DNA of 64,000 nucleotides from assembly GCA_025454795.1 (NCBI GenBank), contig JALONT010000032.1:1-64000 (forward strand), given 5' to 3'. Below, piece after piece: positions 37,920 through 59,147 of this stretch (the stretch's first letter is position 1; each line of letters starts with the position of its first letter). Position numbers and translations under genes: made by a program. This DNA is from Bacteroidales bacterium. GTDB lineage: Bacteria; Bacteroidota; Bacteroidia; Bacteroidales; VadinHA17. The notes beneath the pieces are model-generated. The model searched no databases. It was not told where the DNA came from and saw only the letters and a list, made by a program, of their open reading frames with translations.

Positions 37920-38516
37920 ATGAAAATAAACAATGAAATGAAAAGATTATTATTTACACTCATATTAACAGTTCTTTTCCTGAAGATTTCGGCACAGGAC
38001 AGGTTCACAGACCTGCGTGATGGTAATAGTTACCGTACGGTTACAATTGAAGGGGTTACATGGATGGCTGAGAACCTTAAATACAAGGCTAAAGGCAGCG
38101 GAACCTATTACTTCGACAATAATCCCGATAACATTCCCGCCTACGGGATTTTATATGAATGGGAAACAGCAATGAAAGCTTGTCCTGACGGGTGGCACTT
38201 ACCTTCAGGGTCAGAATTCAGAACCCTGGCAAATCATTTTGAGATTGAGGAGAAATGGGAGAAAACAGGGTCTGGTCCTCTATACTTCGGGATCCAGCTT
38301 TCGGGAATGCAGGATTACGAAGGAATTTTCACAGAGGTGGATGAGAGCGCATATTACTGGACCTCGACAGAATATGATAATAATGAAGCGGAATTTTTCA
38401 GCTATGTGATATTAGATGACAAGCCGATTATTGATATTTCACGAAAAGAAGATATGCCCGATATCCATGGTGCTGAAAAAAACAACAGATATTCTGTGAG
38501 GTGCATGAAGAACTAG
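37920..38516 (+). CDS. FISUMP-domain secreted protein
   Basis: The product is 198 residues. A signal peptide lies within the first 26 residues. The start could also be the second Met at 37938, MKRLLFTLILTVLFL. The domain reads FTDLRDGNSYRTVTIEGVTWMAENLKY ... ACPDGWHLPSGSEF ... YWTSTEYD ... YSVRCMK, the Fibrobacter succinogenes major paralogous domain fold common in Bacteroidota surface proteins. Function unknown, probably carbohydrate or adhesion related. Its stop codon lies at the breakpoint of the truncated glycosylase remnant. Confidence 0.9.
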   Translation: MKINNEMKRLLFTLILTVLFLKISAQDRFTDLRDGNSYRTVTIEGVTWMAENLKYKAKGSGTYYFDNNPDNIPAYGILYEWETAMKACPDGWHLPSGSEFRTLANHFEIEEKWEKTGSGPLYFGIQLSGMQDYEGIFTEVDESAYYWTSTEYDNNEAEFFSYVILDDKPIIDISRKEDMPDIHGAEKNNRYSVRCMKN

Positions 38517-38517
38517 G

Positions 38518-38982
38518 GTCAGGCTGATTGAAAAATGCGGCCTGAATGTAAGCGGATTCGAAACACACGAGACATCCTCAGTATTTATTTATGAGATGAT
38601 TGAAGAATTTGGTGGGGTTGAAAAGTTTTATGCTGCCTTTTATGTAAGTTCCATATCGCCCCTCGGTTTTACATCTGTGGGGAAAAACGGGAAAGAGATC
38701 AATTACAATTATTATGACAGCAAAGAGCTTTCAGAATCCATATACGATTTCGCCATAGAAACTATCAGAAAACAGCTTGAATCCGGGATTGTAAGGGATA
38801 TCTGTTTTTGCCTGGGAACCGGTAAAAATTTCAGATTTCTTACGAAACTTAATAGGATATACAGGTATTTCGGACGGATTGAGCCACTGGAACATCCTCG
38901 TTATATAATGCAGTACAGGTCGACCAGGAAAAACACCTATATAAATAAATATATAGAAAAATTCAGCAGCATTTATTTATAA
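38518..38982 (+). pseudogene. 5'-truncated SMUG2-type (DUF4918) uracil-DNA glycosylase remnant
   Basis: The open frame continues upstream of the first Met at 38596: codons from 38518 read VRLIEKCGLNVSGFETHETSSV and join EMIEEFGGVEKFYAAFYV. This is the middle of the SMUG2/DUF4918 glycosylase family (SGxETHExSSVFxYExI ... NYNYYDSK ... CFCLGTGKN ... LEHPRYIMQY). The first 80-90 residues, holding the GINPGR-type active-site strand, are missing and replaced by the end of the FISUMP gene. The remnant is therefore unlikely to be active. The rest of the frame is intact, so the deletion is recent. Confidence 0.85.
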
Positions 38983-39039: not shown

Positions 39040-39057
39040 TTTCGTATATTTACGAAA
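39040..39057. promoter_or_regulatory. ArsR-type operator before arsR-like gene (site A)
   Basis: TTTCGTATATTTACGAAA is a perfect 7-bp inverted repeat with a 4-base centre. The central TATATTTA occupies the place of a -7 box. The ATG is 61 bp downstream. It shares the TTTCG-N8-CGAAA frame with sites at 54915 and 56768. Confidence 0.8.
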
Positions 39058-39117
39058 GACTCAGTTTCTAACAAGTATCTGATATCAGAATTTATTTAAA
39101 GTTAAAGTATAATTTAT

Positions 39118-39456
39118 ATGAATAATAGCCAATCCGATAAAAAATTATATACAGATAAAGATGTAAGACTTGCACGTTTTGCTAAAGCTCTGGGGCATCC
39201 GGCAAGAATTGCAATCCTGAGGCATATTGCATCCCTGGAGACCTGCTGTTTTAATGAAATATCAAAAGAATTGCCACTTGCAATATCAACAGTATCCCAA
39301 CACCTTACAAAGCTTAAAAAGGCAGGATTAATACAGGGTAGCATAGAACCGCCAAGAGTCCGATACTGTATTAATTATGAAAACTGGAAACTCCTCAGAA
39401 AGCACTTTAAGGCATTTACAAAAATGGAGATCGCCAAATACGAAAAAAATAATTAA
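39118..39456 (+). CDS. ArsR/SmtB family repressor of the octaheme unit
   Basis: The product is 112 residues. Winged-helix start: ARFAKALGHPARIAILRHI; recognition helix: AISTVSQHLTKLKKAGLI. Three cysteines (Cys43, Cys44 in ETCCF and Cys84 in RYCIN) match in place those of the arsenic-island ArsR. This implies sensing of a thiophilic ligand such as As(III), or of reactive sulfur. It is preceded by an operator-like palindrome and followed by a strong terminator-like hairpin, then by the rhodanese and cytochrome genes. It is probably autoregulated. Confidence 0.93.
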   Translation: MNNSQSDKKLYTDKDVRLARFAKALGHPARIAILRHIASLETCCFNEISKELPLAISTVSQHLTKLKKAGLIQGSIEPPRVRYCINYENWKLLRKHFKAFTKMEIAKYEKNN

Positions 39457-39459
39457 TCC

Positions 39460-39497
39460 ATCCCATGTGAATCCATAATTCAATATGGGATTTTTTT
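39460..39497 (+). terminator. Rho-independent terminator or attenuator after arsR-like gene
   Basis: ATCCCAT (39460-39466) pairs with ATGGGAT (39485-39491), and TGAAT pairs with ATTCA inside, closing a 5-base loop. Seven T follow. A mutually exclusive pairing exists: CCATGTGAA (39463-39471) with TTCACATGG (39496-39504), ending 4 bases before the next ATG. This makes an attenuator or translation switch possible. Confidence 0.7.
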
Positions 39498-39508
39498 CAC
39501 ATGGTATC

Positions 39509-39787
39509 ATGAATATTACACCGGGAGAGTCCTTTGAACTTTGTGAAAAAGGGGCAATAATTGTTGATGTTCGTGAAGACTATCTGAGTGCTTTCAAAAT
39601 GGTTAAAGTTGAAAAAGTGTTGTATCTGCCCTTCAGTCAGATTAAGGAACATTACAAAGATTTACCGCATGACAATCCATTGATTTTTGCTGATGCAGTC
39701 GGACTCAGAAGCCGTGAAGGTGTAGTGTTTATGAATTCACATGGATATGACAATGTTGCCAATATGGCCGGGGGTATTGTTGACTGA
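39509..39787 (+). CDS. Rhodanese-fold protein lacking the catalytic cysteine
   Basis: The product is 92 residues from the ATG at 39509. An ATG at 39485 lies inside the terminator hairpin and is rejected. The rhodanese fold is clear: ITPGESFELCEKGAIIVDVREDYLSAF, VLYLPFSQI and the active loop ADAVGLRSREGV. In active rhodaneses the loop is CxxGxRS. Here Asp62 takes the Cys position, while Gly65, Arg67 and Ser68 are kept. It is therefore probably not a sulfurtransferase but could be a binding or regulatory protein. It is 45 bp upstream of the octaheme cytochrome. Confidence 0.85.
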   Translation: MNITPGESFELCEKGAIIVDVREDYLSAFKMVKVEKVLYLPFSQIKEHYKDLPHDNPLIFADAVGLRSREGVVFMNSHGYDNVANMAGGIVD

Positions 39788-39832
39788 GAGCGAGAAGAAG
39801 TACAATAGAAAAGATTTTTAAAATAAATATCT

Positions 39833-42256
39833 ATGAAAAGAGGAAATCTTAGCTTATTGCTGTTGTTTGTGTTTGCCGGATTGCTCTTAGTCTACATATG
39901 GGAAATGAGATCCGGCAAAAAAGAACCACTTATTACAGATCGTGAACTAATTACCCAATCGGGAGTCTGCCCTCCATTTTTTCTTTATGATGAGGATGGC
40001 AAAGTTATTGATCCTGTTCATGAGATTAACGCTGAAAAACCTTATTCTCCGAAACAAACATGCGGAAAATGTCATGATTATGATAAAATAACGCAGGGAT
40101 TCCATTTCCAGCAGGGTAAGGATGAAACAGCCACCGGCGTTTTGGCTGAACGATATCAATGGGTATCCAATCCTGGTAATTACGGTGGAAACTGGTGCTC
40201 CCCAGCCCCGCTTTATAATTATCTGTCGAAAAAAAATAATTCTTCCGTAAAAGAAATGGACATGACTTCTTTTACATTCATTACCAACGGATGTGCTACC
40301 TGCCATCCGGGAGGAGGACCGCTTGAGTTCGACAGGGAAGGATTCAGGTATGATAAGAATATGGAAGAGATGGGATTTACAGCCGGGGGGACGAACAATT
40401 TTGACGGGGACTATTATCAGGCACACTGGAATATCTCCGGAGTCATTGAAGCTGATTGTAATCTCTGCCATCTTCCTGAATATGATTACAAAACCAGAAA
40501 TGAACACCTGGCAAAATTCAATTTCAGATGGATGGCAACTGTTGGTTCAGGATTAGCTGCCGTGGAGGGTTCAATAAAAGATACAGTTGATGTTAAGGTA
40601 AAATATAACCTGACTAAGTTTGGGGCTGACGGCAAAGTTTCAATGCACCTTGTGCGGGAACCAAGAAATGAAACCTGTCTTAATTGCCATTCAAAACCCC
40701 AATGGAAAAAGCGGGGTGCTTCATTTACCGAATACACTGATGTTCATATAGCCAAGGGAATCAAATGCGTTGATTGTCATGTTGCCGGTTCAATGGCCTC
40801 AGATCCCAGAATTAGGGGAAAAGAAGTTCATCAGTTTGGCAAGGGCGATGATCCATCAGGATGGGTAAGAAATGACCTTGATAATACAATGCGTACATGC
40901 AGGGATTGCCATCTCACTGGTTATCTGAATGCGCCCATTGCAAAGCATACATGGCTGCCTGACCTTCATCTTGATAAGCTCTCCTGCCAGGCATGCCACA
41001 TACCAGAGAGAAAAGTCAAATCAGCCTTGGTCCAGGTAAGTGATATATATAATCCGGGAACAAAAATTACCCCTCCTCCAAAATATGTCTGGACATTCTA
41101 CGACCAGAACATGAATTACTGGAACCACTACGGTGAACTGTCAATGTTTACGGCAAAAGACCAGCCATCAGATCCTTTCGTACCTGAGTATGCTAAGTAT
41201 AAAGGACAAATTTTCCCTGTAAATGCAGTCCATAGTGCATGGCCAGGCATTTATACTGCGGGAAAGAAAGGTCTCGATCAACCGAAGATGAAAGATATTT
41301 ACGGCATGTGGATGAGCCACCGGAAGGATAAATCAAAATATCCCGAACTGGCAAAAATTTCTGACAATAATTCTGACACCATTCCGGAAGTTAACACACC
41401 GGAAGAGATTGACGCCTTTATTAATTCTGTAACTTTACTAATGAATGATCTGGGGTACGATCTTACCGGTAAAAGGATTGTTTGGGTAAATGACGACAGG
41501 ATGTATCTAAATGGAAAAGATTTTAAAACTCTTGAAAAAGAAAAATGGGAATCCTCGCCTTATGCATCAGTTTACAAATACAGTCACGATGTTTTCCCGG
41601 CAAAAGCAGGGTTGGGAATCAATGGATGTACTGATTGTCATTCTTTCAGATCTGATATCTTCTTTAGGCAACTGGTAAAATATCCATTTGGTGATGATGG
41701 CAATCCGGTGATAGAGCCACAGTATAAGAAGCTGGGAATGAGCGGCTTTATGGTAGGATTATCGGCATTCAGAGAGCAGATTGTAAAATCATTTGAGTAT
41801 CCGGCAATGATTTTCCTTCTCCTGACCATTTTATTATCAGTTGCATGTTATGTAAACAAAAAGCAGAACTTTTTCCCTGTCAGCTCAAAACATCTTATTA
41901 TAATTTACGGGTTGCTTATTGCCGGGCCTGCTCTTGTCTTTCTAAAACCAGATGTGAACAGCTATGTCCTGCCGGACCGGTTGACACTTGATTCAAATCA
42001 TTTCATTATAACAATTCTTGCATTAATTGCCGGAGCTTTTACAAGAAAACTGCAGGCATTGTTCCTGTTCCTTACGGTTGTGTCTGGCTTATTGATGATG
42101 GTTAAGTTTGAACTGATTTACCAGATAGTCAGGATCGCTTATACAGTTTTTGACATATCGGTAGTTTTAAGCGTCCTGATATCAATCATCTATTTTATTA
42201 ATGATCAATTCGGGATATTGAAACAGACATTCAAAAATAACTTACTTGATTTCTAA
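39833..42256 (+). CDS. Membrane-bound octaheme c-type cytochrome
   Basis: The product is 807 residues. Residues 5-22 form an N-terminal membrane anchor. Eight CXXCH heme sites begin at Cys77, 154, 209, 282, 312, 356, 385 and 599. Residues about 655-790 contain four or five membrane helices that could exchange electrons with quinol. The DKLSCQACHIP segment recalls octaheme reductases of the tetrathionate/hydroxylamine type, but the heme spacing and the membrane tail differ, so no substrate is assigned. It follows an ArsR-type regulator and a rhodanese-fold gene, suggesting respiration with, or detoxification of, a sulfur or arsenic compound. It is unlike any family I can name with confidence. 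Confidence 0.88.
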   Translation: MKRGNLSLLLLFVFAGLLLVYIWEMRSGKKEPLITDRELITQSGVCPPFFLYDEDGKVIDPVHEINAEKPYSPKQTCGKCHDYDKITQGFHFQQGKDETATGVLAERYQWVSNPGNYGGNWCSPAPLYNYLSKKNNSSVKEMDMTSFTFITNGCATCHPGGGPLEFDREGFRYDKNMEEMGFTAGGTNNFDGDYYQAHWNISGVIEADCNLCHLPEYDYKTRNEHLAKFNFRWMATVGSGLAAVEGSIKDTVDVKVKYNLTKFGADGKVSMHLVREPRNETCLNCHSKPQWKKRGASFTEYTDVHIAKGIKCVDCHVAGSMASDPRIRGKEVHQFGKGDDPSGWVRNDLDNTMRTCRDCHLTGYLNAPIAKHTWLPDLHLDKLSCQACHIPERKVKSALVQVSDIYNPGTKITPPPKYVWTFYDQNMNYWNHYGELSMFTAKDQPSDPFVPEYAKYKGQIFPVNAVHSAWPGIYTAGKKGLDQPKMKDIYGMWMSHRKDKSKYPELAKISDNNSDTIPEVNTPEEIDAFINSVTLLMNDLGYDLTGKRIVWVNDDRMYLNGKDFKTLEKEKWESSPYASVYKYSHDVFPAKAGLGINGCTDCHSFRSDIFFRQLVKYPFGDDGNPVIEPQYKKLGMSGFMVGLSAFREQIVKSFEYPAMIFLLLTILLSVACYVNKKQNFFPVSSKHLIIIYGLLIAGPALVFLKPDVNSYVLPDRLTLDSNHFIITILALIAGAFTRKLQALFLFLTVVSGLLMMVKFELIYQIVRIAYTVFDISVVLSVLISIIYFINDQFGILKQTFKNNLLDF

Positions 42257-42273
42257 CTTTTTTTAAAAATAAT

Positions 42274-43047
42274 ATGAAACACTCACTCGGTTTTATAGGT
42301 GGCGGAAGAATTACAAAGATCCTTCTGCAAGGTTTCATAAACAAAAATGTAAAATTCGAAAAGATTGTAGTAGCGGATACCAATACGGAGGTTCTGGCAA
42401 ATCTTAAAAAACGATTTCCGGATATAGTTTCTGCTGATGCAAAAAGTGCTGCCAGTCAGGATGTTGTTTTCCTGGCCCTTCATCCGCCAATGATTATGGA
42501 TACCCTTGAACTGATAAAAAACAATGTTAAAGCGGAGGCAACAGTTATCTCACTGGCGCCCAAGATCAACATGCCAAAGCTGGCATTAAAGCTTGGACAT
42601 GTAAAGAATCTGGCAAGGTTGATCCCCAATGCCACATCATATATCAACGAAGGATTCAATCCGGTGACATTTGCAACAGGATTTGATCAGGAAAAGAAAG
42701 TAGAGATACTTTCACTGCTTAAGAATCTGGGACAAATATTTGAAGTCTCAGAAGAAAAGCTCGAAAGCTATGCCATCATGCCGGCAATGCTTCCTACATA
42801 TTTCTGGTTTCAGTGGAGAGAGATTTCAGAAATGGGAGAGAAGATAGGTCTTTCAGGAGAAGAGAGCAAACAATCAATTTATCAGACTATTGTTGCAGCT
42901 CTTCATCTTCTATACAAATCCGGACTGACTCCGGCGGAAGTAATTGATTTAATCCCCGTCAAACCGATAGGCGACCATGAGCCTCAGATAACTGAGATCT
43001 ATAATAACAAACTAATAGGATTGTTTGAGAAAATTAAACCTTCCTAG
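42274..43047 (+). CDS. ProC-like NAD(P)-binding oxidoreductase
   Basis: The product is 257 residues. The Rossmann N-terminus is [17 protein letters not shown], with [13 protein letters not shown] after strand 2 and the P5C-reductase-like hinge [20 protein letters not shown]. The C-terminal helical domain ([17 protein letters not shown] ... [26 protein letters not shown]) resembles the P5CR dimerisation domain. It lacks the TSPGGTT signature that binds the proline substrate, so a true ProC activity is doubtful. It starts 18 bp after the cytochrome, so is probably the last gene of that unit, and it overlaps enolase by 4 bp tail to tail. Confidence 0.82.
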
Positions 43048-47381: not shown

Positions 47382-48207
47382 ATGCTTCAATTTTTCTCTG
47401 TAAGGGTCCTTTCGGATAAATTATCAGGAGGCGATATTCAGTTTTCAGGACTTATTCAAACATGGTTAATTGTGTTCATTGCTGTTGTTATTTTATGTTT
47501 CATTGTCAGCGAGATAACCCGTAATTACAGCCAGGTTGACAAGCTCTGGAGCCTGATGCCCATAGTTTATAGCTGGATCACGTTTGCTTCATTTCCGTCA
47601 CCAAGATTATTCATTATGGCTGCCCTTGTTACAATATGGGGATTGAGGCTGAGCTATAATTTTTCCCGTAAAGGAGGTTATAATATAATTCCATGGAAAG
47701 GAGGATTACAGGTGGGCTGTTATGCGAAATACATCTGCATTAAAGGGAAGGTTTAGATTCGAGCTTTTAACCTGTTTTTCATATCACTATATCATAATAT
47801 TGTGATATTTTTTTTTCATCACCCTTTCTGCTGGCAGCCCTCTATTCTGATAAGTCATTGACAGTTATTGACATAATTGCCTCACTCCTGATGCTTACCT
47901 TTATCATAATTGAAACCGTTGCAGATAATCAGCTATTCAGGTTCCACCAGGAAAAGAAGAATGTCTTAACGAGTGGGAAACACTATACCAGGTCGCTGAG
48001 TAAGGGTTTTATGACAGAAGGGTTATGGAAATATGTGAGACATCCTAATTTTGCACCCGAACAGGCAATCTGGATCAGCTTTTATTTTTTTGGTGTTTCC
48101 GCATCAGGGCAGTGGCTCAATTTCACACTTGCCGGACCACTGTTGCTCGTAATGCTGTTTATAAGAAGAGTGTGCCAAAATTCCTGCCCCGGATCTTTAA
48201 ATTTTAA
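47382..48207 (+). pseudogene. DUF1295 (steroid 5-alpha reductase-like) membrane protein, three lesions
   Basis: Frame 1 encodes about 110 residues of a DUF1295 protein (YSQVDKLWSLMPIVYSWITF ... LRLSYNFSRKGGYNIIPWKG). Near 47700 the frame shifts: the expected RWAVMRNTSALKGRFRFEL continues in another frame. It shifts again near the T run around 47810 and returns with SLTVIDIIASLLMLTFIIIETVADNQ ... YVRHPNFAPEQAIWISFYFFG. Near 48165 about 20 codons are missing before the terminal SVPKFLPRIFKF, which is again out of frame. Three separate defects make this a clear pseudogene rather than one sequencing error. Confidence 0.92.
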
Positions 48208-48269
48208 TCTTTTTTCTGAGAGACAGATACTAAATTGTGATATAAAAATCTAATCAAACCCTTGCAGCT

Positions 48270-50094: not shown

Positions 50095-51435
50095 TCAGTT
50101 AAGAGTGAATAAAACCTGAACAGCAAACCAATAAGAATTTGCCGGATCATTATTGTTAATCTGCTCAATATCTCCCGGTTTAAAATACCCCAGCACTCCC
50201 GTAAACTGCCATTTTTTAAACGCCTGGTAACGGATAAAGATGTCGGCTTCATCTCCCAGACGATGTTTCCCGCTCATTATTTTCATGGTTTTCAGAATAG
50301 TCACATCATCCGGGACCGGGATATAAAAACGGTTGTATTTTATATCAACCCACATCTTCTTTTTTAAGGGGAAGAGCTCAAGGACAATTTCGGGGTCGCT
50401 CAGGTTTGACCATTGCACAATATTCATCCAGCCGTAAAATTTGTCGCTTGCTCCGAAAGCCGGATCAAAAGTACGGATAACATTATCGCTTTTCTTTCCT
50501 CCTGAAGCATAAGTACAGCGAATACTAAGTACCGGAGACGAAGGAAGAGAACTGAACCTGTAGCCGGCTTTTGCAAAATAACCGTATGCATTGATCCGTT
50601 TTCCATTCTCCCTGCCAAATTCCACGGCATACAGAAAATCATAAATAAGATCCTGTTTTTCAGGACTTACAAGCCTGAGCCCTGCCCAGTTCCTGTTTAT
50701 TGACAGGGTTCTGATATAATCTGCCGAACCCTCGGTTTTCAAAGCATAAAATGGTTCTGCATTGAGCCAACCCGTCAGATGAAAATGTGAATATATTCCG
50801 CCTCCCCAAAATTCGGTTTGTGTAAATGGTACTGAGATTTTAAGCGGATCGTGAATTTTTGTCCCGCCTACGAAAACATCAATATAATTCTCTCCTTTTT
50901 TATATGATACTTTTATAGCATCCCATGTCCAGCGGCCGGTATTTCCCCAGTCTCCCGGTCCGAAAATCCTGTAATCTCCGTAAAAGATTTTCTGACGTCC
51001 GGCTTTAACAGTTATATTCTTAAAAAGGTTCTTATATTCAATATAGAGATCATATAGATCAAAATATTCTTCCTGAGGATTCATTGTGTAATACGGTGAC
51101 TCAGTTCCGGTCTTACGAATTTTAAAAAGGTGAGGGTACTTTTTTTCCTGTAATGACCAGCCGAATGCTCTTGAATCCTGCAGATGAAAAGATGCAGTCA
51201 GTTTCTTGTTATTATAAGTTATACCCGGAATTATTCTCTGCATCAGTATCTTGTCATTCAGGCTGCCTGTTTCTTCGGTACCATCATCTCCATAATTCTT
51301 TGCATTCATTCCGTTCCACAGCTCAAGCCGGTAACGGACAGAAAGATCAAATTTGAATCCGGTCTGTTCATCCTGGCAATACAGAACCTGGCTAAAAAGG
51401 GAAAATAACAATATCCGGATAACTATTTTCTTCAT
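50095..51435 (-). CDS. Alginate-export-type outer-membrane beta-barrel protein
   Basis: The product is 446 residues from the ATG at 51435 ([21 protein letters not shown], signal peptide). The body is an alternating-pattern barrel rich in Tyr, Trp and Phe, with [29 protein letters not shown]-like blocks typical of the alginate export (AlgE-like) domain, and ends in aromatic FTLN. It may form a selective anion or substrate channel. It is downstream of the cupin and permease genes of the arsenic island on the same strand, but separation from the ars function cannot be excluded. Confidence 0.82.
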   Translation of the reverse strand: [446 protein letters not shown]

Positions 51436-51465
51436 CGGTTCGGGAAGGTGATTAATCAAATATTC

Positions 51466-51797: not shown

Positions 51798-51831
51798 ATT
51801 TTCAAATTTTCAAATTTTCAAATTCTTCAAG
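51798..51831. repeat. Tandem TTTTCAAA repeat (arsenic island copy 1)
   Basis: Four units of roughly TTTTCAAAT are in tandem between the cupin gene and the half-permease gene. The same unit, inverted, is found at 54.88 kb and 56.35 kb. Confidence 0.75.
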
Positions 51832-52342
51832 GTTGTTTCACATCGAAATCCTTATCCTTTAAATACCATTCCATGAGATAACCGATCAAAATAAAAACAG
51901 GTAATGTAATCAGTGTTCTAAGCAGGGAAAACTTCAGTCCCAGAAAGCCGATCTCAAATGTTATCATAGGGATTTTAATCGTGGCAAAGGCTCCCAGGTA
52001 AATGAAGATATTTCTTATTGAACATCCTTTCTTCCAAAGGATATAAGCAAAGGGGAAAGCACCGTAAAGCGGTCCTGCCTGAAGTGTGGCAAGCAGTATG
52101 ACAAGACCGGTACCTTTCCATCCCGATTCCCTGCCTATTTGTTTTTTAATTTTTTCGCGCGGCACCCACACATCAAACAAACCCACCAGTATGAACATCA
52201 GCGGCAGGAACAGTATCATCTCTTTGAAGAACATCCAGAAATTTAGTCCAATCTTCTCCCCGGTGGCAAAATCAAACAGATATGATAATCCGATCAGGAT
52301 CAGAAAACCAATGGGGGCAATATATTTCTTCAATTCTTTCAT
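51827..52342 (-). CDS. Half-size permease, C-terminal half (COG0701/ArsP-like)
   Basis: The product is 171 residues from the ATG at 52342. The ATG overlaps the TGA of the previous half (ATGA), so translation is coupled. It has five hydrophobic helices: KYIAPIGFLILIGLSYLF, EMILFLPLMFILVGLFDVW, GTGLVILLATLQAGPLYGAFPFAYIL and two more. This matches the C-terminal half of COG0701 permeases (ArsP relatives), which in several Bacteroidota are encoded as two adjacent genes. It would function only with the first half, which carries a stop codon here. Confidence 0.82.
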   Translation of the reverse strand: MKELKKYIAPIGFLILIGLSYLFDFATGEKIGLNFWMFFKEMILFLPLMFILVGLFDVWVPREKIKKQIGRESGWKGTGLVILLATLQAGPLYGAFPFAYILWKKGCSIRNIFIYLGAFATIKIPMITFEIGFLGLKFSLLRTLITLPVFILIGYLMEWYLKDKDFDVKQP

Positions 52343-52818
52343 AAGAAGGATCCCATAATTAATCCTATGAACAAGGCTACAGCAAGGCTTACCAGGTTCC
52401 TTATCACGCTTACTTTCCACCCGAAAAATTTTACTTCCACGGGAAGAGTAAGGAAGCCTGTCATCATAAGGGTTGTTATGAAAACAGCTATTACTGAATA
52501 TGCTACACCATTATCAATCAATATTCCGCAAAGAGGATATGCAATAAACCCTGGTATTAAGGCAACTGATCCCAATAGAGCCGCTGTGATCCAGCCTTTA
52601 ACCCCTTAGCCTTCTCCCATATATTTAACCAATGTTTCATTTGGGATAAGAAAGAGCACAACACTGACCAAGGCCAGCATACTAAGCAGAACAGGAAGCA
52701 ATTTTAAAAACATTGCGATTCCCTTCTTAATGCCTAACCATGTTTTCTGACGATTGAAAATCAGAGAGAATATCAGGCACAATGCAGTAAATATGCTAAG
52801 CAGTTTCACGACTTTCAA
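52339..52818 (-). pseudogene. Half-size permease, N-terminal half with in-frame stop
   Basis: From the ATG at 52818 the frame reads about 70 residues of a COG0701 half-permease, MKVVKLLSIFTALCLIFSLIF ... LVKYMGEG. It then meets TAA at 52606-52608 and continues in the same frame with GVKGWITAALLGSVALIPGFIAYPLCGILI to a TGA at 52339. The protein would be 159 residues with one internal nonsense codon. Everything else, including the coupling to the next half, is intact. A sequencing error, recent inactivation, or readthrough are all possible. Confidence 0.85.
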
Positions 52819-52861: not shown

Positions 52862-53266
52862 TTACTTAACTCCTTTCTGCTGCAATATTTTCACAAGTTC
52901 TTCTTCCGGAAAGAATCCGACATGCCGAAAAAACTCTTTTTCTGTTTTGTCAAGAAATACCTGTGTGGGTATTGCTTCAATTTTGTACTGTTTAGCAAAG
53001 GGTGCCCCTGCTTCTGTCCATACATCATAAAATACCACATTTACCTGGTTGCCGTATTTCTGTTCGATTGACTTCATTACAGGCTGCATCTGCTGACAGG
53101 ATATGCAGCGGACTGAACCAAGTTCGATAAATGTCACTTTGTAATTAATATATTTATTGTCTGGAGGTTTGTTGGCAGTAACAGGTTTTGACTGGGAGTT
53201 GCAACTAATGGCAATAAATAGCAAAGAAGTTAAGAATATTCCATAGCTTTTCTCAAGATTTACCAT
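52862..53266 (-). CDS. Thioredoxin-like lipoprotein
   Basis: The product is 134 residues. Lipobox: LLFIAISC, with the lipidated Cys at 22. Thioredoxin fold with the redox motif SVRCISCQQMQP and the cis-proline in IEAIPTQVF. It is a periplasmic membrane-anchored disulfide reductase or oxidase. It follows the AhpD-like gene by 4 bp in the minus-strand island and probably supports thiol handling for arsenical or COG0701 transport. Confidence 0.9.
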   Translation of the reverse strand: MVNLEKSYGIFLTSLLFIAISCNSQSKPVTANKPPDNKYINYKVTFIELGSVRCISCQQMQPVMKSIEQKYGNQVNVVFYDVWTEAGAPFAKQYKIEAIPTQVFLDKTEKEFFRHVGFFPEEELVKILQQKGVK

Positions 53267-53524: not shown

Positions 53525-54868
53525 TTAGAATATTGATCCGTATATCAATCCAGATATTGTTGCCATTATGATTACAAGGCTTACATAAACTACTGTTTTT
53601 TGTGTTCCGATAATGCCTCTAATGACCAGCATATTAGGTAGCGATAATGATGGTCCGGCAAGCAAAAGAGCAAGTGCAGGCCCTTTACCCATACCTGAGG
53701 CAATCAATCCCTGAAGTATGGGTACCTCTGTCAGTGTGGCAAAATACATGAAAGCTCCAACGACCGATGCAAACAGGTTTGAGAAAATTGAATTGCCACC
53801 CACCAAAGCAGATATCCATTCGTTTGGTATCACTCCGGCCATAGCCTTCCCGTCATGAATGGAGCCAAGAAGAAACCCTGCCGTAACTACGCCAATAGCA
53901 AGCAAAGGAAGTATCTGTTTTGCAAAATCCCATGTAGCCAGTGTCCATCTCCGGTTTTCTTCATCATTCTTATCCAGGAGAGTTATTACAGCAAGTGCGA
54001 TTATTCCCACAAGTACTGGAACAAGCGGCCTGATTTTGTCGCTTTCAATCAACATATTTGAAAGAAAAACTGACAGGAGTGTCACTAATACTGCACCAAG
54101 CACCCATTGCCATTTGATCTTAAGGATCTTAATGAGGTTATAACCCAAAACAAGGCTGAAAAATCCTGTTATATACCATTTATAATTCCATATGTAGAAC
54201 CATGTACTGGAGGTATCTCCTTCTCCGGGTTTTCCCCAGTTGGCAAAAACAAGGATCAGAACGAGAGTGAAGAAATGCATTGATGTCTGCCACATGGGTC
54301 GTTTTTCAGGAAGAGGAGCGATATTCATTTGTTCTTCCTTTTTCACTTTTTCTTCTTTCCGGTAGATAAATGCCATTATCAAACCAATTATTACACTGAA
54401 AGTAACAGCGCCAATCGTTCTGGCGACACCCATCTCAAATCCGAGTATTCTTGCTGTCAGAATAATTGCAAGAATATTTATAGCGGGTCCTGAATATAAA
54501 AATGCTATTGCCGGGCCCAACCCGGCTCCGCGTTTGTGAATACTTGAAAACAACGGAAGAATTGTGCAGGAGCAAACGGCCAGTATTGTCCCTGAAACAG
54601 CAGCAACAGTATAGGCCACCCATTTTTTTGCCTGGGCACCGAAATATTTAATAACTGATGCCTGGCTGACAAAAACCGAAATTACTCCAGCGATAAAAAA
54701 AGCAGGTAAGAGGCAAAGGATAACGTGTTCCCGGGCATACCATTTTACAAGGTCGAGAGTTGCTGCAATAGCTGTATTAAACCTGGCGCTTTCAACAGGC
54801 AGGAAAAATGCGAATGCAAAGATTGCAGCTATCCAGCCAAGTATTTTAATTTCTTTTTTGAGTTCCAT
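53525..54868 (-). CDS. COG0701 permease (ArsP/DUF318-like)
   Basis: The product is 447 residues from the ATG at 54868 (MELKKEIKILGWIAAIF). The longer frame from 54928 begins inside the operator and is rejected. There are ten to twelve helices in two homologous halves. The first has AVCSCTILPLFSSIHKRGAGLGPAIAFLYSGPAIN, the second LATLTEVPILQGLIASGMGKGPALALLLAGPSLSLPN, both typical of COG0701. Conserved Cys in CSCT could bind thiophilic metalloids, as in ArsP, which exports trivalent organoarsenicals. An ArsR-type operator lies 47 bp upstream. Confidence 0.9.
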   Translation of the reverse strand: MELKKEIKILGWIAAIFAFAFFLPVESARFNTAIAATLDLVKWYAREHVILCLLPAFFIAGVISVFVSQASVIKYFGAQAKKWVAYTVAAVSGTILAVCSCTILPLFSSIHKRGAGLGPAIAFLYSGPAINILAIILTARILGFEMGVARTIGAVTFSVIIGLIMAFIYRKEEKVKKEEQMNIAPLPEKRPMWQTSMHFFTLVLILVFANWGKPGEGDTSSTWFYIWNYKWYITGFFSLVLGYNLIKILKIKWQWVLGAVLVTLLSVFLSNMLIESDKIRPLVPVLVGIIALAVITLLDKNDEENRRWTLATWDFAKQILPLLAIGVVTAGFLLGSIHDGKAMAGVIPNEWISALVGGNSIFSNLFASVVGAFMYFATLTEVPILQGLIASGMGKGPALALLLAGPSLSLPNMLVIRGIIGTQKTVVYVSLVIIMATISGLIYGSIF

Positions 54869-54879
54869 GTTGTTAATTT

Positions 54880-54913
54880 GAAAATTTGAAAATGAGCTAA
54901 TTTGAAAATTGTT
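54880..54913. repeat. AATTTGAAA tandem repeat (arsenic island copy 2)
   Basis: Three to four units of AATTTGAAA lie between the permease ATG and the operator. They occupy the 5' leader of the permease transcript. Confidence 0.75.
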
Positions 54914-54914
54914 A

Positions 54915-54932
54915 TTTCGTAAAAACACGAAA
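54915..54932. promoter_or_regulatory. ArsR-type operator before the COG0701 permease (site B)
   Basis: TTTCGTAAAAACACGAAA is TTTCG-N8-CGAAA, the same frame as sites A and C. It lies between arsG and the permease gene, so the permease block can be transcribed and repressed on its own. Confidence 0.75.
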
Positions 54933-54949
54933 TATTTTTATAAATTTTT

Positions 54950-55651
54950 TTAAAAGTAAACTCTGATTATATAATATATTCCGACAATAATAAAAAGCAC
55001 TGAGATGATCCGCCGGAACCATAGTTCGAAGGCCTTTATCTTATTGTATGCACCTCCGATACCGGATACTGTATAAGCAATTATCCATGCAAAAATAATA
55101 ACCGGGATACCTGTTGCAATGGCGTACACAACCGGCAGGTAAAGTCCTGATGCCTGGCTGGCAATAGTTAGAGGAACAAGCATTCCGAAGTAAAGGACAC
55201 CGCTATAGGGACAAAAAGCAAGTGCAAAAACCAGTCCCAGTAATATTGCATCGAGGTAACCCCATTTCTTTTTATTCTCCATCCTTGAAGTCAGCCCGCC
55301 GATACCTGGTAATTTTATCCTGACAATATCGAGCATGAAAAAACCGATTATAATAAGAAGAGGTCCGATAATTTTTTCGCCATAACGCTGAAAAAAACCT
55401 GAGAATTTCAGCTGGTCAGCTCCAAGCAGAATTATTAATGCAATAGCTGTATAGGTTATAGCCCTGCCCAGGGTATAAAGCAATCCGTTAATAAATACCC
55501 GGTTACGGTCTTCAATATCCCTGCTTATAAATCCGACAGCAGAAATGTTCGTTGCCAGCGGGCAGGGACTAATGGCAGTCATCAAACCCAGCAGCAATGC
55601 CGTAAGCCATGGCATTGTGCTGTTATCAAGAAGGTTTGTCAGAAATTCCAT
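54950..55651 (-). CDS. arsG: ArsG-type aromatic arsenical efflux permease
   Basis: The product is 233 residues with six helices of the DsbD/CcdA (LysE-like) fold. Paired Cys motifs are in AISPCPLATN (helix 1) and LAFCPYSGVLYFG (helix 4), as in the membrane part of CcdA. Position after arsE and arsF identifies it as ArsG. In Shewanella the ArsEFG proteins give resistance to trivalent aromatic arsenicals. Here it probably exports an arsenical with help from the two thiol proteins. It starts 4 bp after arsF. Confidence 0.88.
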   Translation of the reverse strand: MEFLTNLLDNSTMPWLTALLLGLMTAISPCPLATNISAVGFISRDIEDRNRVFINGLLYTLGRAITYTAIALIILLGADQLKFSGFFQRYGEKIIGPLLIIIGFFMLDIVRIKLPGIGGLTSRMENKKKWGYLDAILLGLVFALAFCPYSGVLYFGMLVPLTIASQASGLYLPVVYAIATGIPVIIFAWIIAYTVSGIGGAYNKIKAFELWFRRIISVLFIIVGIYYIIRVYF

Positions 55652-55655
55652 ACAG

Positions 55656-56084
55656 TTATCTGATCAGCAGACCATCAACTTTTTCGTTGATAATCTCTTT
55701 GAATTTATCAGGTTTAACCATGGCATACATGAAACCCTCATTGGTGAGATTGATTTTCTGATCACCCTTTACAAGGAGCAGAGTCTGTCCTGATACGCCA
55801 AGTCTTTCTGCCAATGGCTTACTTGATGCTTCTTCAAGATTGACCGATTGAAATGTTATTAAACCCTGTTTTATCTGGTTCGGATAAAGAGTTTCCAGGT
55901 TCTCCTTGGCGTTGGCTTCAATTGTTCTGCATGTTATACAACGCGCGGTGAAGTGAAAATAGTAGGCCTCAATTTTATCAGAGTTGTTTTCCGAAGCTTT
56001 AACTTCCTTATTCGATGGTTGTGCCGTGCAGGCAATAAAGGGAGCTATCAATAAAAGAGTTAAAATATATCTGTAAGTTTTCAT
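55656..56084 (-). CDS. arsF: ArsF family thioredoxin-like lipoprotein
   Basis: The product is 142 residues. Lipobox: LLIAPFIACTAQ. The thioredoxin-like domain has the redox pair FTARCITCRTIEANAK (C-x2-C) and ends in QTLLLVKGDQKINLTNEGFMYAM. It matches proteins annotated as ArsF of the arsEFG set. The periplasmic location agrees with a redox or shuttle role for ArsG. It is 10 bp from arsE and 4 bp from arsG. Confidence 0.85.
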   Translation of the reverse strand: MKTYRYILTLLLIAPFIACTAQPSNKEVKASENNSDKIEAYYFHFTARCITCRTIEANAKENLETLYPNQIKQGLITFQSVNLEEASSKPLAERLGVSGQTLLLVKGDQKINLTNEGFMYAMVKPDKFKEIINEKVDGLLIR

Positions 56085-56094
56085 AGTAATTGAC

Positions 56095-56334
56095 TTATTG
56101 ATTTTTAATTAGTATTTCTTTTACCTGCTTAACTGTTGGAACTTGTCCACTAAGTACAACCTTCTCATTAATAACAAGTACAGGAGTATGCATAACCCTG
56201 TATTCCATTATTTTGACAATGTCTTCAACCTTTTCGATCGTGGCTTCAATTCCTGTTTCTGCAACCGCATCTCGCGTTACTTTTTCAAGTGTTTTGCATT
56301 TTGGGCAACCCGGCCCCAAGATTTTTATTTCCAT
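56095..56334 (-). CDS. arsE: ArsE family small thioredoxin-like protein
   Basis: The product is 79 residues, TM0996/MTH895-type mini-thioredoxin: MEIKILGPGCPKCKTLEK with the CPKC pair, a cis-proline in MHTPVLVINEKVVLSG and a short C-terminal helix. Cytosolic, no signal peptide. It begins the arsE-F-G set, 60 bp after arsR. The reduced dithiol probably binds or transfers the arsenical to ArsG. That is inference from the set. Confidence 0.88.
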   Translation of the reverse strand: MEIKILGPGCPKCKTLEKVTRDAVAETGIEATIEKVEDIVKIMEYRVMHTPVLVINEKVVLSGQVPTVKQVKEILIKNQ

Positions 56335-56394: not shown

Positions 56395-56745
56395 TTATTT
56401 ATGTATCAGATAATCTGTCGTTTCACAAGATATTTCACCTGAACTTTCATTTAAGAACTCGTTGAATATTTCTCTTGCCTTTTCCCAGTTTTTCCTGTTA
56501 ATACAATATTTAATATAGGGTGGATTAATTTCACCCTGGATCAATCCCGCATATTTAAGCTCCTTCAGGTGCTGTGAAAGAGTGGAACGGCTTACAGGGA
56601 GTTCTTCAACAAGGTCTCCGCTATAGCAGCATGAGTTCATTTTTGAGAGTTTCTGCAGGATATATATCCTCACAGGGTGGCTGAGAGCTTTTGCAACATT
56701 TGCCAGTCGCCGGACTTCCGTTGTAAACTGAGGTTTGTTTGTCAT
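56395..56745 (-). CDS. arsR: ArsR family repressor of the arsenic island
   Basis: The product is 116 residues from the ATG at 56745. The longer frame from 56775 would begin inside the operator. Winged helix: VAKALSHPVRIYILQKL; recognition helix: VSRSTLSQHLKELKYAGLI. Cysteines are at 39 and 40 (NSCCY) and 81 (KYCIN), the same layout as in the regulator at 39.1 kb, with one more at 107. Adjacent thiols of this kind bind As(III) in several ArsR types. Operator C lies 23 bp upstream and overlaps the TAACTTTG -7 box, so it is autorepressed. Confidence 0.94.
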   Translation of the reverse strand: MTNKPQFTTEVRRLANVAKALSHPVRIYILQKLSKMNSCCYSGDLVEELPVSRSTLSQHLKELKYAGLIQGEINPPYIKYCINRKNWEKAREIFNEFLNESSGEISCETTDYLIHK

Positions 56746-56767
56746 CTTGAGAAAAAATATTTTTATA

Positions 56768-56785
56768 TTTCGCAAAGTTACGAAA
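56768..56785. promoter_or_regulatory. ArsR operator between arsR and arsC (site C)
   Basis: TTTCGCAAAGTTACGAAA has the frame TTTCG-N8-CGAAA. On the minus strand its centre is TAACTTTG, a full TAnnTTTG -7 box, so repressor and polymerase compete. It sits in the divergent arsR/arsC promoter region. Confidence 0.85.
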
Positions 56786-56835: not shown

Positions 56836-57261
56836 ATGAAGATATTAATACTTTGTACAGGCAATAGTTGCCGGAGCCAGATGGCGCAAGGATTTTTACA
56901 GTCATTAGATAATAAAATTGAGGTGCAATCAGCAGGCACATTCCCCGCAGGAAAGGTAAATCCAAAAGCAATTGAGGTGATGGCTGAAGCAGGAATCGAT
57001 ATAAGTAAGAACACTCCGAAATCAGTTGATGAATTTCTGAATGATCAGTGGGATTATGTAATTACAGTTTGTGACCATGCTAATGAAACTTGCCCTCTGT
57101 TTTTGGGCAAAGTGAGAAAGAGACTGCATATCGGATTCGAAGATCCTTCAAACGCTACGGGCTCCGAAGGTTTTATAATGAGCGAATTTCGCAGGATAAG
57201 AGATGATATAAAGGATACATTTTTAAAATTTTACAAATCAGAAATAAAACCAAAATTATGA
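56836..57261 (+). CDS. arsC: Arsenate reductase (LMW-PTP fold, thioredoxin-linked)
   Basis: The product is 141 residues. The P-loop is Cys7-X5-Arg13 in LCTGNSCRSQMAQG, and the two relay cysteines are Cys79 and Cys86 in VCDHANETCP, as in the pI258-type ArsC. It reduces arsenate to arsenite. It is divergent from arsR and overlaps arsM by 4 bp (ATGA), so the arsC-arsM-acr3 run is one operon. Confidence 0.96.
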   Translation: MKILILCTGNSCRSQMAQGFLQSLDNKIEVQSAGTFPAGKVNPKAIEVMAEAGIDISKNTPKSVDEFLNDQWDYVITVCDHANETCPLFLGKVRKRLHIGFEDPSNATGSEGFIMSEFRRIRDDIKDTFLKFYKSEIKPKL

Positions 57262-58094
57262 ATTCAGAAGAACTTAAAAACGTTGTTAAAGAGAAATACG
57301 GAAAGATAGCTTTAAAAATTGACCAGGATAATTCCTGCTGCGGCAGTTCATCATGCTGCGGAACAGGTGTAGACTACACAGTTTTCAGTGAGAGTTATGA
57401 AAAACTTGAAGGATATAATCCTGATGCCGATATGAATCTTGGTTGTGGAATCCCAACTGATTATGCAGGTATAAAGAAGGGTGACCATGTTCTCGACCTG
57501 GGAAGTGGTGCCGGAAATGACTGTTTTGTTTCAAGAGCACTGGTTGGAGAAACAGGCAGGGTTACGGGACTTGATATGACAGAACCCATGATTAAAAAAG
57601 CAAGTGAAAACTGCGAGAAACTAAAATATACAAATGTTGAATTTGTCCCGGGAGATATCGAAGAGATGCCTTTTGAGAATAAGATATTTGATGTGGTGAT
57701 ATCAAATTGTGTTCTCAATCTTGTCCCAGATAAATCAAAAGCATTTAAAGAGATCTTCAGAGTTTTAAAACCAGGCGGGCACTTCTGTGTCTCCGATGTA
57801 GTTATTAAAGGTACTCTGTCTGAAAAAATGCAAAAGGATGCTGAAATGTATGCAGGATGCGTGTCAGGGGCAAGTGAAATGAATGAATATCTGAAGATCA
57901 TTGAAAATTCAGGGTTCCTGAATGTGAAAGTGCATAAACAAAAAGAAATAAAACTCCCGGATTCTTTATTATCAGAATATAATAATTCAAATGAATTAAG
58001 CTCCTATCATGCAGGAGATACTGGGATTTTCAGTATCACAGTTACCGCGGAAAGATCTGTAAGCTGCAGCTGTGGCGGAGAGTGCCAACTTTAA
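57258..58094 (+). CDS. arsM: Arsenite S-adenosylmethionine methyltransferase
   Basis: The product is 278 residues. An unusual Cys-rich N-terminus (SCCGSSSCCG) precedes the core. Typical ArsM features follow: YNPDADMNLGCGIPT, motif I VLDLGSGAGNDCF, the conserved Cys in ISNCVLNLV and the As-binding Cys in MYAGCVSG. The tail is again Cys-rich (SCSCGGEC). It methylates As(III), giving volatile or exported methyl arsenicals. It is coupled to arsC by a 4-bp overlap and 12 bp from acr3. Confidence 0.95.
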   Translation: MNSEELKNVVKEKYGKIALKIDQDNSCCGSSSCCGTGVDYTVFSESYEKLEGYNPDADMNLGCGIPTDYAGIKKGDHVLDLGSGAGNDCFVSRALVGETGRVTGLDMTEPMIKKASENCEKLKYTNVEFVPGDIEEMPFENKIFDVVISNCVLNLVPDKSKAFKEIFRVLKPGGHFCVSDVVIKGTLSEKMQKDAEMYAGCVSGASEMNEYLKIIENSGFLNVKVHKQKEIKLPDSLLSEYNNSNELSSYHAGDTGIFSITVTAERSVSCSCGGECQL

Positions 58095-58106
58095 TAAACT
58101 CACTAA

Positions 58107-59147
58107 ATGGGAACAACTAAACGACTTTCATTTTTTGACCGGTATTTGACTTTATGGATATTTCTTGTAATGTTTACAGGGGTAATCATAGGCTATTTTA
58201 TGCCGGGAATTTCAGGATTCTGGAACTCATTAAGCTCAGGCACAACCAACATACCTATAGCTATTGGTCTTATCCTGATGATGTATCCTCCTCTTGCAAA
58301 AGTGAAATATGAAAAACTGCCTCTGGTTTTCAGGAACCTTAAACTTTTAGGCTTGTCACTCTCAATGAACTGGATTATTGGTCCAATAGTAATGTTTTTA
58401 CTGGCAATATTATTTCTTCATAATCATCCCGGGCTTATGGTGGGTGTTATTCTTGTTGGACTTGCCAGATGCATAGCAATGGTACTTGTATGGAATGATC
58501 TTGCAAAAGGAGATACCGAGCTGGCTGCCGGACTGGTTGCATTTAATGCGTTATTCCAGGTATTCCTGTATTCGGTATATGCTTATATTTTTATTACTCT
58601 CCTTCCTCCTTTGTTCGGCCTCAGCGGATCAATTGTAGAAGTATCCATATCCGAAATAGCAGTTACCGTTTTAATCTTTCTGGGAATTCCTTTCCTGGCC
58701 GGATTAATTACTAATACTGTATTTAGGAAGGTATCCGGAGACGAATGGTATTATGATAAATTCATTCCTAAAGTATCATGGCTGACACCCATCGCCCTGT
58801 TGTTTACAATATTTGTCATGTTCTCCCTTAAAGGGGAAAACATCATTAAACTACCAATGGATGTATTGAGAGTTGCAATCCCATACACAATATATTTTGT
58901 TTTCATGTTTTTCTCTACTTTCTTCATAGCAAAGTGGATGGGAAATGGTTACGAGAAATCAACTACAATGGCTTTTACTGCCGGATCTAACGATTTTGAG
59001 CTGGCAATAGCTGTTGCCGTGGCTGTATTCGGCATTAATTCGCAGGCTGCTTTCGCTACTGTTATAGGACCTCTGGTGGAAGTCCCGGTGCTGATACTGC
59101 TGGTAAATGTTGCGTTGTTCTTTAAGAAAAAGTACTTTCGTGAATAA
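58107..59147 (+). CDS. acr3: ACR3 family arsenite efflux transporter
   Basis: The product is 346 residues with ten helices. The As(OH)3-pathway cysteine is Cys122 in [19 protein letters not shown], and the broken-helix region near the C-terminus has [21 protein letters not shown]3 exports arsenite using the proton gradient. It is the third gene of the plus-strand ars operon, 12 bp after arsM. Confidence 0.96.

Follow-up and report, generated by a model that had tools for sequence, protein, structure and literature searches.

What would a multiheme cytochrome reduce when its gene lies behind an ArsR-type repressor, and in response to what signal? This question is raised by a compact unit of four genes at positions 39,040 to 43,047 of the window, by which we mean the whole stretch of 64,000 nucleotides analysed here (positions 1 to 64,000 of contig JALONT010000032.1, from the Bacteroidales bacterium assembly GCA_025454795.1, a genome of 3.29 Mb that is 99.1% complete). 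A preliminary description of this DNA had proposed a redox module, linked to quinol, for a sulfur or arsenic species. Our analysis adds to it a conserved cysteine of the cytochrome (Cys122), the selenocysteine (Sec) form of that residue, a homology with the family of octaheme tetrathionate reductase (OTR) and the truncation of the rhodanese-like protein. On balance, this work leads us to read the cytochrome, from its sequence and its gene neighbourhood, as a membrane-anchored periplasmic octaheme reductase with a heme/thiol (selenol) centre that would serve the arsenic response.

The four-gene unit

The unit and the cytochrome positions referred to below are as follows.

39040..39057, plus strand: operator palindrome TTTCGTATATTTACGAAA, of the form TTTCGTA-N4-TACGAAA, preceding the four-gene unit
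39118..39456, plus strand: ArsR/SmtB repressor, 112 amino acids (NF033788, 62.2 bits, cut-off 55; alignment A4)
39485..39787, plus strand: rhodanese-like protein, 100 amino acids (PF00581, 31.4 bits, cut-off 22.2; alignment A2)
39833..42256, plus strand: membrane-anchored octaheme c-type cytochrome, 807 amino acids, 8 CXXCH, with an OTR-like core and a hydrophobic tail
40196..40198, plus strand: Cys122 codon (TGC) of the cytochrome; TGA/Sec at the same position in deltaproteobacterial relatives
40706..40711, plus strand: K292-K293 codons of the cytochrome; K293 corresponds in the alignment to the Lys of GGGGDxVKHGD, a motif of OTR
41780..42253, plus strand: C-terminal hydrophobic tail, about residues 650-807 (hydropathy)
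42274..43047, plus strand: ProC-like oxidoreductase, NAD(P)-dependent, that lacks the proline signature, 257 amino acids (PF03807, 53.8 bits, cut-off 21.6; alignment A3)

All four open reading frames lie where they had been placed, and Pfam and NCBIfam uphold the broad families first assigned to them. The motif count and hydropathy agree with a cytochrome of 807 residues with eight CXXCH sites and a multi-helix tail: there is one N-terminal hydrophobic stretch, and the tail, from about residue 650, has an estimated four to five helices. Ahead of the unit, two small genes (37920-38982) occupy the same place before the ArsR-rhodanese genes of three loci encoding relatives (L003, L013 and L016), and their homologues precede another ArsR gene in L007.

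Cys122 and its selenocysteine form

A scan of genome contigs found relatives of the window cytochrome at 26 loci, in Bacteroidota, Ignavibacteria, Kapabacteria, deltaproteobacteria and one Sedimentisphaerales bin. Alignment A1 (23 rows) shows Cys122, which sits between hemes 1 and 2, to be conserved, and 37 of the 38 rows of alignment A7 keep it, Sec rows being counted as Cys; in L023 and L024 the codon is TGA. Matches in the phylum of the L023 genome (titled Deltaproteobacteria in its record; this is also the phylum of genome G001) come from 49 of 395 genomes and make up 51 rows, 30 without a stop codon and 21 with exactly one TGA. Thirty loci were fetched from this phylum (L028-L057, L028 being the L023 gene). 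In 11 of them TGA falls exactly at column 122 (L028, L033-L042), and in eight, which belong to a second subfamily (L049-L056), it falls at the matching site, in a GKFU motif that aligns two columns off. TGA copies were also found in L024 and in the second copy of L025, while the outgroup L057 has Ala at the position of Cys122. Two subfamilies, with the motifs GGx(W/Y)(C/U) and GKFUPP, therefore share the Cys/Sec switch. In-frame TAA or TAG codons in L009 and L021 were rejected as recoding and judged to be assembly errors or decay.

The argument for Sec comes from a hairpin behind the TGA, by its position, its loop and its codon choice and not by its folding energy. It was examined in 21 Sec genes (L024, L028, L033-L042, L049-L056 and the second L025 copy; a second G276 copy and G251 were left out). 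The best hairpin is CGCC-AGTT-GGCG or CCGC-AGTTG-GCGG in 19 of the 21, with a stem that is sometimes longer and an AGTT loop whose first nucleotide is 19 or 25 nt downstream of the T in TGA; of the remaining two genes, L040 contains the same hairpin and L028 a variant. No such AGTT-loop best hairpin occurs in 29 Cys genes, and stem scores separate Sec from Cys genes with a Mann-Whitney p of 3.5e-8, for sequences that are related and not independent. The hairpin overlaps Gln-Leu-Ala codons, in which Leu is TTG in 20 of the 21 Sec genes (versus 172 of 1444 elsewhere in them) and Ala is GCG in all 21; TTG is used in none of the five Cys genes that encode the same QLA peptide. No Rfam SECIS family reached its gathering score among 18 loci, and the energy z-scores of 60-nt stretches, from mononucleotide shuffles, were mostly unremarkable. 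Because of this hairpin, absent from the Cys forms, and of the locked synonymous codons, we read the in-frame TGA at the Cys122 column of the relatives as selenocysteine. A column in which Cys and Sec stand for each other probably marks the catalytic residue of the cytochrome.

The window cytochrome itself is a Cys form, with no TGA at this column, and its genome gave no match to selA, which we used as the marker of the Sec machinery. selA is above cut-off in 20 of 22 TGA genomes (missing from G003 and G399), in nine of ten non-TGA genomes of the L023 phylum and in four of four of the outgroup; none of six Cys genomes of other or unknown phyla has it, two of the six being the same genome. Within the L023 phylum selA does not split Cys from Sec; its presence shows that genomes with TGA could use Sec. 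Both forms occur together in one locus, L025: the Cys copy spans 3118-5610, and the TGA copy, from 10584 onwards, has a frame break further on.

Of 63 rows, 54 entered a tree; the other nine, which were short, broken, duplicated or divergent, were omitted. On this tree the window protein belongs to a clade of Cys forms from Bacteroidota, Ignavibacteria and Kapabacteria, whose sister group is formed by deltaproteobacterial Cys forms. The Cys/Sec label requires two changes, and the deep branch that unites the second subfamily and the outgroup may be a long-branch effect.

A distant relative of OTR

When A7 was compared with ten OTR proteins of the L023 phylum, hhalign gave 99.1% and an E value of 6.6e-19 over hemes 3-7, and when a global alignment was forced, hemes 1-7 paired off in the same order, heme 8 lying outside that comparison. 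The OTR set itself matches PDB 1sp3 at 611 bits, in which residue 64, by count, is the Cys between hemes 1 and 2. This link was reached through the profile of the OTR family and not by a PDB search, in which the single sequence found only NrfB (E 0.03) and the A1 profile nothing meaningful. The homology is distant: the TIGR04315 score is 29.1 bits for the window protein and 45.4 bits for the best of seven relatives (cut-off 375), and we do not claim membership of this family. The window cytochrome passes the cut-off of no NCBIfam model, and the c-type part passes that of no named family in the window protein or in the seven relatives scanned; the finding that the preliminary description had said would refute it, a place for the cytochrome in a named family with a known substrate, was thus not made. 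Literature searches, judged on titles and the opening of abstracts, returned no paper describing this octaheme family.

In A7, K292 is conserved in 38 of 38 rows and K293 in 37 of 38, and the Lys of GGGGDxVKHGD in OTR, which we take to be a heme ligand there, is aligned with K293. Outside the CXXCH motifs of the c-type part, all 38 sequences keep five His, and 34 of them a sixth. Bis-His ligation of every heme would take eight such residues, and it is therefore probable that the site of one heme or more is open or unusual.

The Cys/Sec switch is not confined to the octaheme family, since OTR-family genes of the same phylum carry a TGA between hemes 1 and 2 in four of the 12 loci fetched. These are true OTR-family genes (L096, L099, L102 and L103), with an in-frame TGA placed like Cys122, in agreement with a line of Table 1 of PMC13188914. 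That table names ExtKL and one TIGR04315 protein, a possible member of the octaheme family, as selenoproteins; no entry describing the octaheme family was found in it.

An FdnI-type (formate-dehydrogenase gamma-type) cytochrome b replaces the tail in L049, over the TIGR01583 cut-off, and stands at the place of the tail in L028, just below it. Because of these cytochromes b and of the hydrophobic tails, we infer from the relatives that quinol would be the electron source. The scanned L049 gene belongs to the second octaheme selenocytochrome subfamily (FUPPSFRQLA; L049-L056 and L080-L087), which has no core arsenic genes nearby. Tail-less Cys forms of 640 amino acids occur in L044-L047, whose larger regions are L076-L078 and L092; there FmdE-like and TauE/SafE-like genes lie directly upstream of the cytochrome, a different context that may hint at sulfur.

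A common operator and neighbouring arsenic genes

The genes of the arsenic island of the window and the two further copies of the operator are listed here.

50095..51459, minus strand: outer-membrane beta-barrel (Alginate_exp), cluster c2 (PF13372, 113.4 bits)
51827..52420, minus strand: piece of an ArsP_1-like permease (PF03773, 44.9 bits, cut-off 32.3, covering 15-139 of 294)
52862..53266, minus strand: thioredoxin-like protein, cluster c7 (PF13098)
53525..54928, minus strand: ArsP_1-family permease, cluster c3 (the L007 homologue matches PF03773; NCBIfam SO_0444/SaoE below cut-off)
54915..54932, minus strand: second copy of the operator, where the ArsP_1-family permease gene is listed to start; with a start at the internal Met of residue 21 this copy would lie upstream
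54950..55651, minus strand: ArsG-family permease (NF040495, 306.3 bits, cut-off 200)
55656..56084, minus strand: thioredoxin-like protein, cluster c13 (L007 representative PF13192)
56095..56334, minus strand: ArsE/MTH895-type thioredoxin-like protein (TIGR00412, 109.9 bits, cut-off 62)
56395..56775, minus strand: arsenic-island ArsR (alignment A4)
56768..56785, plus strand: third copy of the operator, where the island ArsR gene is listed to start, preceding the divergent ArsC-like gene
56836..57261, plus strand: ArsC-like protein of low-molecular-weight phosphatase fold (TIGR02691, 130.2 bits, below the cut-off of 174.3)
57258..58094, plus strand: ArsM arsenite methyltransferase (NF008823, 329.7 bits, cut-off 263)
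58107..59147, plus strand: ACR3 arsenite efflux transporter (TIGR00832, 422.1 bits, cut-off 282.8)

The palindrome that starts at 39040 recurs at the island ArsR, as first described, and within one mismatch the whole 3.29 Mb genome contains only the three copies at 39040-39057, 54915-54932 and 56768-56785. This putative operator is therefore common to ars genes and rare elsewhere. Within three mismatches the window has five matches at three places (0.14 expected); within two mismatches the genome has 12, versus 29 for a reversed-pattern control, so that only the three closest sites are meaningful. Among 26 ArsR genes examined, like palindromes precede those of L002, L004, L005, L013 and L016, and weaker ones those of L003 and L019.

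C43 and C84 of ArsR are invariant in the 12 sequences of A4. The closest comparison is ArArsR of Arsenicibacter rosenii, for which As(III) requires C41, C80 and C82 and methylarsenite C41 and C82, and whose palindromic footprint is similar by eye (PMC11868830). With an offset of +2 that is inferred, the sequences not being aligned, C43 and C84 match C41 and C82, whereas the third As(III) ligand of ArArsR, C80, is replaced by Arg (R82). The window ArsR would fit a methylarsenite-type or two-thiol sensor, by this analogy, unless C44 is the third ligand.

The association with arsenic extends to the relatives. A core ars gene (ACR3, ArsC-like, ArsP-like or ArsM) lies within 9 kb in 26 of 47 subfamily-1 loci and in none of 13 others (p 2.5e-4); the 47 include six loci with fragmentary cytochromes, whose subfamily was assigned by us, duplicates L079 and L095 being dropped, and the 13 comprise four outgroup loci and nine of the second subfamily, the divergent L091 among these nine. 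In the same genus (n=48; ten further members, in which the cytochrome was not searched for, are excluded) ArsG is present in eight of nine cytochrome carriers and in 16 of 39 non-carriers (p 0.023), and in five of the nine ArsG and the cytochrome share a contig at a distance of at most 13 kb. Each neighbour cluster was labelled from one or two of its members that were scanned. Among the 62 loci, homologues of the c2 barrel lie near the cytochrome, often beside it, in 21 (19 without duplicates), and thioredoxin-like neighbours recur, c6 in 15, c7 in 14 and c13 in nine. The only molybdopterin oxidoreductase found in the window genome (PF00384, E <= 1e-20) is PhsA-like (456.5 bits, cut-off 694; ArrA 140.9, cut-off 1600), so molybdenum-dependent arsenate respiration is not evident there.

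Two other stretches lie between the unit and the island. A DUF1295-type gene is split over two open reading frames (47382-48253) and is a single frame in L013, hence broken here or by assembly. The open reading frame at 49213-50079 is chimeric, its N-terminus resembling c15, an outer-membrane efflux cluster that lies close to the cytochromes of relatives, and its C-terminus being an alpha-L-rhamnosidase; it may be the scar of a deletion.

Distribution and gene order

The search for the four-gene order in other genomes, which the preliminary description had proposed, showed that it is not unique: it is complete in two of the 26 loci (L002 and L016). The order ArsR-rhodanese-cytochrome is found in L003, L004 and L005, whose contigs stop inside or shortly past the cytochrome, and parts of the unit occur in rearranged order in L006-L010, L013 and L015. 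The nearest named relatives of the cytochrome are from Bacteroidales or Bacteroidetes bins. Nine of 48 genomes of the same genus carry it, the window's own included, as do none of 32 other genomes of the order and two of 395 genomes drawn from the window's phylum, one of them again its own. The cytochrome gene is accessory; a search of PLSDB for plasmid-borne copies gave no match at E 1e-30.

The rhodanese-like and ProC-like companions

The rhodanese fold had been described as lacking its cysteine, and Asp (D70) indeed occupies the active-site position, so the protein does not qualify as an active rhodanese. Asp is found in 12 of the 13 members of A2, window copy included, and Cys in one. The window copy has 100 amino acids versus 135-156 in relatives, and ends at a TGA where these have Trp. 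The other 12 sequences have a C-terminal CxC tail, mostly SGSCMCQLK, which is gone from the window copy, and sulfur transfer by this copy is therefore unlikely. Sec at this TGA was rejected, as the genome gave no selA match and the relatives have Trp.

The ProC-like protein scores 106.3 bits against TIGR00112 (proC, cut-off 196.75), which does not make it a P5C reductase. Its C-terminal region differs from GGTT, the P5C-reductase signature, as expected from the earlier remark that the proline signature is lacking. Its family (10 sequences, 71% mean column identity in A3) is found near the cytochrome in nine of the 62 loci besides the window.

What the cytochrome may reduce

A reductase of the arsenic response, the reading that we favour, would work as follows. 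ArsR, bound to the palindrome that it has in common with the ars island, would release the unit in the presence of trivalent arsenic; an arsenic oxyanion or thioanion would reach the periplasm through the outer-membrane barrel; and electrons from the membrane (the quinol pool, via the tail) would pass along the hemes to a catalytic centre that pairs a heme with the reactive thiol of Cys122, or with the selenol in one group of relatives. The Cys122 thiolate might attack the sulfur bound to As(V), or the arsenic itself, and two electrons would free As(III), together with sulfide if the substrate is a thioarsenate. ACR3, ArsG, ArsP and ArsM would then process As(III). In this scheme the homology, the Cys/Sec equivalence, the common operator and the gene neighbourhood come from the sequences themselves; the periplasmic location, the quinol donor, the direction of the reaction and the substrate are proposals. 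As to the substrate, we favour thioarsenate or arsenate, the two being equally possible and neither of them more than a tentative choice; a compound of another kind is a slightly less probable candidate, and a methyl- or aryl-arsenical a doubtful one.

Several observations weigh against this reading. No core ars gene is present in the available stretch of 21 of the 47 subfamily-1 loci, some of which are short contigs and others not (L011, L014, L027, L070, L075); the loci are related and some come from one genome, which makes the p values given above optimistic. ACR3 is not significantly enriched in the same genus (seven of nine carriers versus 21 of 39, p 0.27). Nor is ArsG enriched in the phylum of G001 (three of 49 cytochrome genomes, G139, G188 and G353, versus 29 of 346 others); members of cluster c5 there are therefore taken to be partly DsbD-like, and c5 is not counted as an ars gene. 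The palindrome was not found upstream of nine ArsR genes from loci in L061-L092, which limits the operator argument to units of the Bacteroidota type. The N-terminal part alone compares weakly with OTR (31%, E 5e-4), and Cys122 and the OTR Cys, alike in their placement between hemes 1 and 2, are not residue-aligned. The window tail matched no Pfam or NCBIfam model, hence no quinol or heme-b model, and the quinol linkage first proposed is thus supported by FdnI-type tails in some relatives and not by the window protein. Finally, OTR is named for a sulfur substrate, and the TauE/SafE-like and rhodanese neighbours fit sulfur chemistry equally well.

This last point leads to an alternative that we hold to be unlikely but that deserves to be taken seriously, in which the substrate of the cytochrome is a sulfur compound (tetrathionate, polysulfide, thiosulfate or sulfite), as is said of OTR, and the link with arsenic is due to As-S chemistry or to sulfane sulfur being what ArsR senses. 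The OTR homology, the rhodanese-fold neighbour and the TauE/SafE-like cluster c16 at seven loci (L015, L019, L073, L076, L077, L078, L092) are what it would explain, but the closest operator copies are confined to the four-gene unit and to genuine ars genes, ACR3, ArsM and ArsC-like genes lie near relatives, and ArsR resembles the sulfite-type sensor BigR weakly (22.8 bits, cut-off 155). The redox character proposed in the preliminary description is thus supported by the OTR homology and the Cys/Sec site, and its arsenic side by the operator, the neighbouring ars genes and ArsG; these data do not decide between sulfur and arsenic.

It is less probable still that the cytochrome is an electron-supply module, passing quinol electrons to the thioredoxin-like proteins of the ars clusters (c6, c7, c13) by thiol-disulfide exchange at Cys122 or Sec. 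The recurrence of thioredoxin-like genes across loci and the Cys/Sec at position 122 would suit this role, but the window protein has no second Cys beside Cys122, its core is related to a family that has a catalytic member, and ArsG/DsbD-type proteins of the same clusters could already serve. Finally, a selenite or tellurite reductase like the Geobacter ExtHIJKLMNOPQS system (rhodanese, porin, Sec cytochrome), placed under ArsR, is very improbable: the rhodanese-like protein, outer-membrane barrel and multiheme (seleno)cytochrome are alike in kind and ExtM gives a weak match (best over residues 66-159, 19.6 bits, cut-off 800), but no Ext family is over its cut-off (ExtN 14.5 bits, cut-off 200; no ExtKL among the matches listed), the neighbours are arsenic genes, and ExtH is described as a 49.0 kDa protein, compared with the 100 amino acids of the window rhodanese.

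Comparison with known systems

The candidate arsenic reductase and OTR (TIGR04315, PDB 1sp3) have in common eight hemes, of which 1-7 follow the same order, the Lys position, and a Cys or TGA between hemes 1 and 2. The octaheme family differs in its length of 600-940 amino acids, mostly with a membrane tail, in scores that range from 26 bits or fewer up to 45, far under the TIGR04315 cut-off of 375, and in its place in an arsenic regulon, where no link to tetrathionate was seen. The Geobacter Ext cluster, which includes the ExtKL selenocytochrome, likewise combines a rhodanese-like protein, a porin-like protein and a Sec multiheme cytochrome, but its cytochromes have 4, 5, 10 and 12 hemes and belong to other families, with no ExtKL among the matches listed for the window protein, and neither ArsR nor arsenic efflux genes are named in the part of PMC5877670 that describes it. 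The respiratory arsenate reductase ArrAB would catalyse the same reaction if the substrate of the octaheme protein is arsenate, with the difference that ArrAB is a molybdopterin enzyme and the octaheme protein a heme-based one.

Implications

A first consequence concerns annotation, which would split or truncate the octaheme genes wherever TGA is read as a stop. It is conceivable, and we advance it tentatively, that these proteins form a new class of molybdenum-free arsenic reductase, a membrane octaheme enzyme with a Cys/Sec-heme site that would respire or detoxify arsenate or thioarsenate with quinol electrons. If so, the family would be new both as an arsenic enzyme and as a family of selenoproteins, and would provide a gene candidate for the cytochrome-linked arsenate reduction proposed for Desulfomicrobium Ben-RB. 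To our knowledge, arsenate reductases are either molybdopterin enzymes (Arr) or thiol enzymes (ArsC types); a heme/selenol enzyme in an arsenic regulon would be a third chemistry of arsenate reduction. The OTR loci in which the same Cys/Sec switch occurs suggest that such a mechanism may be common to multiheme reductases.

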